DNA of 45,740 bases from Natrinema versiforme JCM 10478 (GTDB lineage: Archaea; Halobacteriota; Halobacteria; Halobacteriales; Natrialbaceae). Shown here in pieces: positions 24,600 to 27,620 of this stretch (its first letter is position 1; every line of letters begins with the position of its first letter). The stretch covers positions 1 through 45,740 of the forward strand of contig NZ_AOID01000032.1 of the NCBI RefSeq assembly GCF_000337195.1, read 5' to 3'. The notes below the pieces were generated by a model that saw only the letters and a list, made by a program, of their open reading frames with translations, had not been told where the DNA came from and did not search any database. Position numbers and translations under genes: made by a program.

Positions 24600-24974
24600 G
24601 TGACAGCCCCTACTACGTGGGAGGTCGAGCTTCGCGTCCCGGCGGACGCCGATTTAGACGCCGCTGGCGAGACCCGTACCATCGAGGTCAGCGAGGACGA
24701 GGCGATCCTCGCGGCGGCCCGATCGGCGGGGCTCTGGCTGTCGGCCGACTGCCAGCAGGGGTGGTGTATCACCTGCGGCGCGAAGCTCCTCGAGGGCGAG
24801 GTCGACCACAGTCAGGCCAAGCGATACTACCCGTCGGACGAGGCGGCGAACTTCGTCCTCACCTGCGTCGCTCGCCCGCGCTCGGACTGCGTCATCGAAG
24901 TCGAGCGCTACGACGAACTGCTCCGGCAGCGCGCCGACCACGATCAGCCCCCGGGCCGGTCGAAGCTCGGGTAG
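24600..24974 (+). CDS. Plant-type [2Fe-2S] ferredoxin
   Basis: A 124-residue ferredoxin. The cluster ligands are C51, C56, C59 (DCQQGWCITCGA) and C89 (VLTCVA), the canonical CX4CX2C…C. It has a short acidic N-terminal extension and a charged tail, as in halophilic ferredoxins, although it differs from the major haloarchaeal ferredoxin. The start is GTG at 24600; the nearby ATG is out of frame. It is transcribed away from the MDR gene and precedes a DCC thiol protein by 75 bp, so the two may be co-expressed. Confidence 0.92.
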   Translation: MTAPTTWEVELRVPADADLDAAGETRTIEVSEDEAILAAARSAGLWLSADCQQGWCITCGAKLLEGEVDHSQAKRYYPSDEAANFVLTCVARPRSDCVIEVERYDELLRQRADHDQPPGRSKLG

Positions 24975-25049: not shown

Positions 25050-25490
25050 ATGAGCGAGCCGCAGTTCACCGGTATCCTGCTGTACGACGGCGACTGTCCG
25101 TTCTGCTCTGCGGCCTCGACCGCGGTGCGCCAACTCGAGGCCGTCGGCGTCGTTCCGTGGGACGAGCCGGCCGCACAGGACTTTCTCGAGGCCCAGTTCG
25201 GCGAGACGCCCTTTGCGCTGTTTTTCGCCGATATTGAGGCCGAGACAATCTGGGCGGGTCGAACCGCTGCGACCGAACTGTGCGAGCGAGCGGGCATGCC
25301 GGTCCTCGTCCGGGATATCGTCGACGAAAACTACGAGCAATTTGCGGACGCGATTCGGTTCGTCTCGAGCACCGACCGCGAGATCGACCCGTATCACGAC
25401 GCGTATCCGCTGGCCGACGACGCCGCGGCGCTGTTCGACGAGCTAGCGGCCGCCGGGAATCGAACGCACGTGCCGACCGGCTCGAGGTGA
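25050..25490 (+). CDS. DCC-family thiol-disulfide oxidoreductase (DUF393)
   Basis: A 146-residue thioredoxin-like protein. The family signature LYDGDCPFCSA gives the D15-C16 pair and C19, i.e. a CPFC redox centre. The rest follows the DCC plan, with a LFFADIEAETIWAG strand and a C-terminal helical half. The polypeptide is cytoplasmic with no signal. It follows the ferredoxin gene on the same strand and faces the DyP-like gene convergently, placing it in a redox neighbourhood. Confidence 0.9.
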   Translation: MSEPQFTGILLYDGDCPFCSAASTAVRQLEAVGVVPWDEPAAQDFLEAQFGETPFALFFADIEAETIWAGRTAATELCERAGMPVLVRDIVDENYEQFADAIRFVSSTDREIDPYHDAYPLADDAAALFDELAAAGNRTHVPTGSR

Positions 25491-25519: not shown

Positions 25520-26803
25520 TTAGGCCGAGTCCGGGTTCGGCTCGGGCAGGGCCCGGAGCCCGCGCGGCGGCACGAGGTAGTTCGCCCGGTTGCGGACCCT
25601 GATGTACTGGAGGATACCGTTGTTCGTCCGCGAGCTGACCGACCCCTCGGTGAGGTCGCTCCCGGTCATCGCCTCGCGCGTTTTCACGAAGTCGGCGATC
25701 GAGCGCTGTAGCGAGAGGAAGTGGGTGGCTGCCGCGTCGTCGTCGGTCGAATCGAAGTCCCGGCGGAGGATGATCGGTTCGCCGTCCTCGCGGGCTCGCG
25801 CCGCCTTCTGGGCGTGGCCGACCGTTCCGCGTCGCGCGGCCTCGGCCGCGTCGCCGCCGACCTCGGCGATACGACTCGAGTCGCCGAGGTTGTCCCCGGC
25901 TCCGTCGACGAGCCCCTCATCGGCGTGGGTCGGCGAGAACATCTTGGAGACCCGGATATCGCGGCTGTCCTGTTCGTACCACTGGTGGAGGTGGAGCCGG
26001 ATCTTCGAGAGGTGGATGGTCGTCCCGCTGGCGAAGGGACCGTCCTGAATCGTCACGCGGTCCTCGCTCGCCTGCGTCTTCCTGAAGCCGGATTTGAACC
26101 CCATGAACATCGGCGCGTCCTCGGGAACCGGCTCGCTGTCGGGGATGCCGCTGACACCGGACTGGCGCTCCGCCGGGAGGCCGCTGCCGATGAATCCCGC
26201 TCGGCGCTCGGCCACGTCGAAGACCCCCTCGAAAGAGTCCTCGACTTCGAGTCCGTTGATCTCCTCGAGTTCGCCTTTCAGCGCCTCTTCGGCGCTCAGT
26301 GTGACGTGGCCGTAGTCGCTGGCCAGATGGACCAGGGCGTCGTACTCGTCGAGTTCGGGGTCCTCGATCGGCGCGAGCGCTTCGGGGTCGGGCAGGTCGA
26401 CGCTTTCGGGAAGGTCGGCCTCGAACCGGTCGAAGTAGGCCGGGCCGTAGCCGATCGTAAACGCCAGTCCCTCGTTTCCGCGTTTGTAGGCCGTCTCGAG
26501 GGTTCGGAACGCGGCCTCGAGTTGCTCGCGTTCGCCGTCGGCATCCGCGGGTCCGTCGCCGACGTACTCGAGGCCGAGCAGGAGGTGGTGTTCGGGCGGC
26601 TCGATGTTCCCGTGGTCGTCGGTCGCGAGGAACTCGTTCCACGCGTGCTGGCGGTCGGGGAGTTCTGCGGGGCTGAGCGCGGCCTGTGGCACGTCTTCGG
26701 TCTCCTCGCGCTGGAGGCAGGCGGCGAGGGCGCTCGCACCGCCGATGGCGACGGCGCTGCGGACGAACGCGCGACGTGAGAGCCCGCGGTCCGAACCGTT
26801 CAT
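25520..26803 (-). CDS. Tat lipoprotein of DyP-type peroxidase fold
   Basis: A 427-residue exported protein. [10 protein letters not shown] (8-17) is a twin-arginine motif, followed by a hydrophobic stretch and the lipobox LAAC (C29). The body matches DyP/EfeB-like haem peroxidases: GFKSG (235-239) sits where GxxDG is expected, [11 protein letters not shown] gives a probable proximal haem ligand H330, IILRRDF gives conserved arginines at 347-348, and [11 protein letters not shown] is the late helix. The distal Asp is replaced by Ser238, so peroxidase chemistry may differ. I recall a haloarchaeal DUF7405 family of this kind. It is divergent from the Dps-like gene, suggesting shared iron or peroxide handling. 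Confidence 0.85.
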
Positions 26804-26960
26804 ACACGCCCCTCGGGGGTTCGCGACTAAGGATATTGCGGTCACCGCGGTCGGCGAGCGGCGGCCAGTGAGTGAAAACCGATCGCAGCCGGCGTGTCGT
26901 GCGACTCTCGGCAGTTGCAAGCAAAGATTGAAGCAGCGAGTTATGGGAGTGGACCGGTGG

Positions 26961-27620
26961 ATGTCCGACGAGAAACCACACGCTGCAGGCACCGTCGATG
27001 CAGGGGACACGAGCGAGCGCGTCGGGATGAACGTGCTTCGCGAGCGCGGGCTCGAGCCCGAGGAACTGCGCGAGAAACTGATCGATGCGATCGGGGCCGA
27101 ATTCACGACCTATTACTACTACACCAATCTGCGGATGCATCTCGCGGGTCACGAGGACTACAAGGAAATCGCCGAGGACGCCCGGCTTGAAGACCGGGCC
27201 CACTTCGAACTCGTCGCACCGCGAGTGTACGAACTCGGCGGCGCGCTACCCAACGACATTCGGGCCTTCGCCGACCGGGCCTCCTGTCCCGACGCTGAGG
27301 TCCCGGCCTCGATGGCCGGCGACGGGAGCTTCGACACCGATTCGCTCAGCGCCGAGAGCATCCTCGAGGTCTTACTCGAGGCCGAACGCTGTGCGATCCG
27401 GACGTGGTCGGAGGTCTGTGATATGACTCAGGGGAAAGACCCGCGGACCTACGACATGGCATCGCGTATCTTACAGGAGGAGATCGAACACGAGGCGTGG
27501 TTCGTCGAACTCCTCTCGATGGAGCGGGACGGCGAGATCAACCCGGCGGGCCACTTCGTCCGGGGCGAACCCGGCGACGCGCCGCTCTCGACGAACCGGC
27601 GGTTTAACGATAGCGCGTAA
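26961..27620 (+). CDS. Dps-like ferritin family protein (thioferritin type)
   Basis: A 219-residue four-helix ferritin-like protein. Probable di-iron ligands are E47 ([11 protein letters not shown]), E77 and H81 (LEDRAHFE), E142 and the EEIEHEAWF pair (about E174, H177). Cys144 and Cys153 ([12 protein letters not shown]) are the paired cysteines typical of archaeal Dps-like thioferritins. It should oxidise and store iron with peroxide and protect DNA. The start at 26961 gives MSDEKP; an in-frame ATG at 26943 adds six residues. It is divergent from the DyP-like lipoprotein gene. Confidence 0.9.

Follow-up and report, generated by a model that had tools for sequence, protein, structure and literature searches.

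DUF7405, a haloarchaeal Tat lipoprotein family with a predicted DyP fold that lacks the distal aspartate, and its association with P19-like iron genes

We analysed a 45,740-nucleotide stretch of Natrinema versiforme JCM 10478 (contig NZ_AOID01000032.1; hereafter, the window) and found that the gene at 25520..26803 on the minus strand encodes a member of DUF7405, a family in which the distal aspartate of the DyP-type peroxidases is replaced in nearly all members, while the aligned proximal histidine and distal arginine are retained in all. Our preferred reading, held with moderate confidence, is that DUF7405 is a surface haem protein involved in iron handling, similar to EfeB without its distal aspartate, and slow or arginine-driven in its chemistry towards peroxide. 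As proposed here, this haloarchaeal cell-surface Tat lipoprotein would carry the full DyP fold and a predicted b-type haem pocket, with His330 below the haem and Arg347 and Phe362 above it. Its most likely role would be in handling iron outside the cytoplasm, as for EfeB and its partners, and in many species the partner would be a P19-like (DUF7350) protein in place of FTR1/EfeO. Compound I formation is expected to be slow, pH dependent or arginine-driven.

The open reading frame was intact from 26803 to 25520 on the minus strand (427 aa), and the plus strand of the same interval was interrupted by stops. The product was assigned by Pfam to DUF7405 (PF24152) with 531.7 bits and an E value of 9e-160, exceeding the curated cut-off of 27.1 bits, and the Dyp_perox_C profile matched residues 233-413 with 17.7 bits, below its curated cut-off of 20 bits. 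DUF7405 was present as a single copy in this genome. With regard to export, the twin arginines of the Tat signal (Arg10-Arg11, 26771..26776, minus strand) and the lipobox cysteine (Cys29, 26717..26719, minus strand) were conserved in 69 and 68, respectively, of 71 sequences, consisting of the window protein and one sequence for each of the loci L002-L071. By sequence, therefore, the window protein has both marks of a Tat lipoprotein, as the first-pass annotation had proposed. Upstream of the gene, a block located 25-40 bp 5' of the ATG (26828..26843, minus strand) was common to 15 aligned sequences, namely, those of the window, 13 loci of the Natrinema group and the Natronococcus locus L043; this block is likely the core promoter. 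A literature search of titles gave no haloarchaeal motif for an iron-regulator site in the promoter region shared with the divergent gene.

The relationship to DyPs became visible at the level of profiles and models. The window protein alone detected no solved relative in the PDB by phmmer and nothing in NCBIfam, including the EfeB model TIGR01412 at E values up to 1. When a profile of 30 relatives (alignment A1) was compared with the PDB, deferrochelatase/DyP chains ranked first, the best matches being A-type DyPs (E 0.0017). Within A1, 23 of the 30 members matched Dyp_perox_C at E values up to 1 (best 5.4e-6), and five matched TIGR01412 (best 3e-5). Comparison of A1 by hhalign with 13 DyPs (E. 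coli EfeB and YfeX, and 11 DyPs from plasmid records) gave a probability of 99.0 and an E value of 6.4e-18, covering residues 7-414. The AlphaFold2 model built from the 30-row alignment (pLDDT 84.4, pTM 0.87) matched DyP structures in Foldseek with a best E value of 1.5e-15, and in VIA-align 2 its top row was haem-bound EfeB (3o72; Z 27.3, rmsd 3.0, 304 residues), where rows within Z 1 count as ties and the top rank thus leaves the DyP class undecided. The A-type DyP DtpAa of Streptomyces lividans, for example, shares the fold at a Z of about 27 with about 21% identity. According to the model, the DUF7405 protein has the whole DyP (dimeric alpha/beta barrel) fold, and the earlier proposal of a DyP/EfeB relationship is upheld. 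Some DUF7405 members in plasmid records are already labelled 'Dyp-type peroxidase domain-containing protein'.

Next to the fold, we analysed the residues of the haem site. In the hhalign register with E. coli EfeB, Ser238, His330 and Arg347 were aligned with Asp235, His329 and Arg347, which we take to be the distal acid, the haem ligand and the distal arginine of EfeB, respectively. The numbering of the first-pass annotation (GFKSG at 235-239 with Ser238, His330, and ILRR at 345-348) was reproduced, as was its claim that a serine occupies the place of the distal aspartate; the GFKSG motif (26087..26101, minus strand) lies at the place of GxxDG. To define the family, 118 stretches matching the DUF7405 profile with an E value of 1e-20 or better were collected, from which nine not spanning the domain and five identical ones were removed, leaving 104 DUF7405 sequences. 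At position 238, these comprised 60 Ser, 37 Ala, three Thr, two Asn and two Asp, in line with a first sample of 71 sequences (36 Ser, 30 Ala, two Thr, two Asn and one Asp). At the distal-acid site of the 13 DyPs, by comparison, 12 had Asp and one had Glu. Since Ser or Ala is found in 97 of the 104 sequences, a lone mutation or a sequencing error at Ser238 is ruled out, and replacement of the aspartate is typical of the aligned family rather than particular to the window protein. The GxxDG feature with its aspartate being absent, the window protein is a DUF7405 member with the predicted DyP fold but not a canonical DyP-type peroxidase; DtpAa, unlike DUF7405, retains this aspartate. A DyP on a Streptomyces plasmid (L127) carries HFTEG at the GxxDG place, with Glu replacing Asp.

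Several other residues of the predicted haem site were strictly conserved. His330 (25814..25816, minus strand), Arg347 and Arg348 of the ILRR motif (25760..25771, minus strand), Phe362 (25718..25720, minus strand) and Glu247 (26063..26065, minus strand) were invariant in 104/104 DUF7405 sequences, confirming that the proximal histidine and the distal arginine are kept. His330 and Phe362 each correspond to the same residue in 13/13 DyPs, and Phe362 is by its place in the alignment the probable distal-pocket phenylalanine. Glu247, in contrast, is not conserved in the 13 DyPs; this family-specific acid near the motif is a candidate substitute for the aspartate. Position 360 was Leu in 71 of the DUF7405 rows, and Thr in the window protein and seven others; a passage of PMC10820274 names a Leu and a Phe in the pocket of DrDyP. 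His159, His293 and His361, considered as a possible metal site, were all present in 82/104 sequences and were lost in differing combinations in the remainder.

To trace the loss of the aspartate, a quick maximum-likelihood tree was constructed from 84 rows (71 DUF7405 and 13 DyP), with the motif columns excluded and long branches flagged. DUF7405 was separated from the DyPs by a fully supported branch. Ala at position 238 was found in a clade of 21 and in two single rows elsewhere, and Ser was scattered over the remaining groups, with at least seven state changes at this position on the tree. The two rows with Asp, L071 and L101, grouped with six Ser rows inside the family (98% SH-aLRT). This nesting in the quick tree counters the idea that these rows are ancestral relics; their Asp is better read as regained, and the loss looks old. 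From the tree we infer that the distal aspartate was lost before DUF7405 radiated. Both L071 and L101 are long variants with large insertions (a domain of about 530 aa, 665-681 aa in total), and their motif is GFNDL.

The engineered KpDyP D143A (6fl2), which was among the Foldseek matches, also lacks the distal aspartate and keeps the arginine, but it is a product of mutagenesis, whereas the loss in DUF7405 is natural and nearly fixed. For this variant, a section of PMC6153280 reports that compound I formation at pH 7 falls from 6.2e6 to 1.9e3 per M per s and becomes pH dependent, and that cyanide binding becomes tighter. By analogy, the peroxide chemistry of DUF7405 would be altered, being slow or arginine-driven: if the absence of the distal base slows compound I formation, haem or iron redox reactions or ligand binding would be likelier than fast turnover as a general peroxidase. 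The role of the distal aspartate in DyPs is, however, disputed, and a portion of PMC8197335 describes it as critical in some enzymes and the arginine in others, with arginine reported as necessary for the activity of R. jostii DypB. Because DypB is reported to depend on its arginine, the loss of the aspartate need not mean a slow peroxidase. A family that has lost this residue from an otherwise retained pocket offers a natural experiment on the disputed role.

It is possible, although we consider it rather unlikely, that DUF7405 is a competent peroxidase or ferroxidase in which only the position of the acid has changed, with either Arg347 or a Glu247 shifted into the distal pocket as the acid-base catalyst. 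The invariance of both residues in 104/104 sequences is consistent with this explanation, as is the arginine-based catalysis described for some DyPs in the same portion of PMC8197335. Glu247 is, however, also found in both rows with Asp at position 238, and thus does not simply stand in for the aspartate. The family-wide loss of the acid, the tolerance of Ala at position 238 (37/104) and the proximal histidine in all 104 sequences would also suit a haem-binding pseudoenzyme, that is, a surface haem carrier, sensor or store without redox turnover; we regard this as improbable, as the absolute conservation of Arg347 and Phe362 points to chemistry kept at the iron. Among literature titles from a collection with few subscription journals, none concerned the DUF7405 family.

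The preferred reading, an EfeB-like protein of iron handling, draws further on the gene neighbours of DUF7405. One neighbouring family was detected near DUF7405 in 18 of 41 cases (40 loci and the window). All five of its tested examples were DUF7350, three of them scoring above the Iron_transport cut-off (PF10634; P19 family), and two of two further DUF7350 neighbours tested also exceeded this cut-off. In 26 of 43 genomes, a listed DUF7405 gene had a DUF7350 domain within 5 kb, on the same strand in 21 cases; these 43 genomes (40 genera) are the best-scoring among the DUF7405 matches listed and not a random draw. Even scatter over 3.6 Mb would give about 0.27 such cases by chance, compared with the 26 observed. 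The P19-like neighbour spans several families. On pNG600 of Haloarcula marismortui, the DUF7405 and DUF7350 genes overlap stop/start and are followed by a second 'iron transporter', and the same overlap with a second iron transporter was found at L133. The iron role suggested by the first-pass annotation gains support from these neighbours in relatives and, within the Natrinema group, from a Dps/ferritin-like gene lying divergently. Against the preferred reading, no DUF7350 was detected within 5 kb of the window's own copy, whose genome is one of 17 in the set of 43 where the P19-like neighbour is missing. One of the DUF7350 genes of this genome is located on contig 31 (L131:6866-9499), adjoining SCO1-like and thioredoxin-like genes.

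Compared with known systems, DUF7405 shares with EfeB (YcdB) of EfeUOB the fold over 304 residues, the aligned proximal histidine and arginine, iron-linked gene neighbours and Tat export (the last described for EfeB in a passage of PMC9174327), and differs from it in the missing distal aspartate and, by sequence, in being a lipoprotein. Neither FTR1 (EfeU) nor EfeO (Peptidase_M75) was detected in the 20 genomes searched (0/20 for each), the window's included, and the P19-like partner was found instead in 26/43; the DUF7405 system is therefore not EfeUOB, although DUF7405 may act as the haem component of EfeUOB does. The P19-cFtr1 system uses an FTR1-type permease according to the same passage (PMC9174327), and P19 systems also differ in that DUF7350 is here paired with a DyP fold. 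As a speculative proposal, DUF7405 and DUF7350 might together constitute an archaeal system for iron at the cell surface, distinct from both EfeUOB and P19-Ftr1, in which an aspartate-less DyP haem site with Glu247 as a new invariant acid oxidises or delivers iron for the P19-like partner via a putative permease. Neither the catalytic-site loss nor the P19 pairing was found at title level in the literature collection searched, which holds few subscription journals.

In the window, three further genes on the plus strand adjoin DUF7405. The divergent Dps/ferritin-like gene (26961..27620, 219 aa; Pfam Ferritin, 2e-16) starts 157 bp from the DUF7405 start, the convergent gene (25050..25490) encodes a DCC1-like, thiol-disulfide oxidoreductase-like protein (Pfam E 5e-5, below the curated cut-off), and next to it lies a gene for a [2Fe-2S] ferredoxin-domain protein (24600..24974; Pfam Fer2, 4e-13), whose approximate start was set by the length annotated in L083. 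Each was found in 14 of 49 loci, with the Dps match at L039 spanning only 58 residues. The presence of the DCC1-like and ferredoxin neighbours in 14/49 loci and of a copper-binding-domain protein in 4/49 could indicate that the fold was kept for a purpose unrelated to iron, for instance thiol or copper redox, but this is very unlikely, as the 14 loci are confined to the Natrinema group (13 loci) and one N. thermotolerans plasmid, while the P19-like neighbour is spread more widely. At L083, the copper-domain protein consists of 463 aa with a C-terminal plastocyanin-like copper domain (identified by Pfam for L083 only); its relatives adjoin DUF7405 at L083, L042, L032 and L033, with no match in the other 45 loci.

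Within the class, 261 of 292 genomes and 73 of 77 genera contained DUF7405. Outside the class, it was found at two loci of bacterial MAGs (L068 and L069) and on one Streptomyces plasmid. The genome of Haloferax volcanii, used as a control, was matched by both the DUF7405 and DUF7350 searches, and the function of this uncharacterised family, which its neighbours link with iron and with a partner family of genes, is testable in this species. Dyp_perox_C exceeded its cut-off in 10 of 41 genomes of relatives, and at least nine of the ten places are DUF7405 genes, seven because they coincide with results of the family search and two (L073 and L074) on the basis of a profile match; the tenth is located in G295. 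As these places are mostly DUF7405 (9/10), no separate canonical DyP is evident in those genomes. In the window's genome, Dyp_perox_C gave no match to a separate canonical DyP at an E value of 0.001, nor to the DUF7405 gene itself. The profile was also silent for all three sources of bacterial DUF7405 (two genomes and one plasmid; 0/3), indicating that it can miss this family.

Several variant copies were also observed. In four genomes (G114, G154, G203 and G285), split or broken DUF7405 copies, some with in-frame stops, lie next to intact ones. Copies 57-58% identical to that of the window were found on plasmids of 135-394 kb in several haloarchaeal genera (L079 and the plasmid matches H53-H64), and at L079 two iron-transporter genes come after the DUF7405 gene and a heavy-metal P-type ATPase gene is close by. 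These plasmid-borne copies perhaps represent a mobile iron cassette. Finally, the divergent DUF7405 paralogues at L119 and L084 adjoin CRTAC1-family genes.
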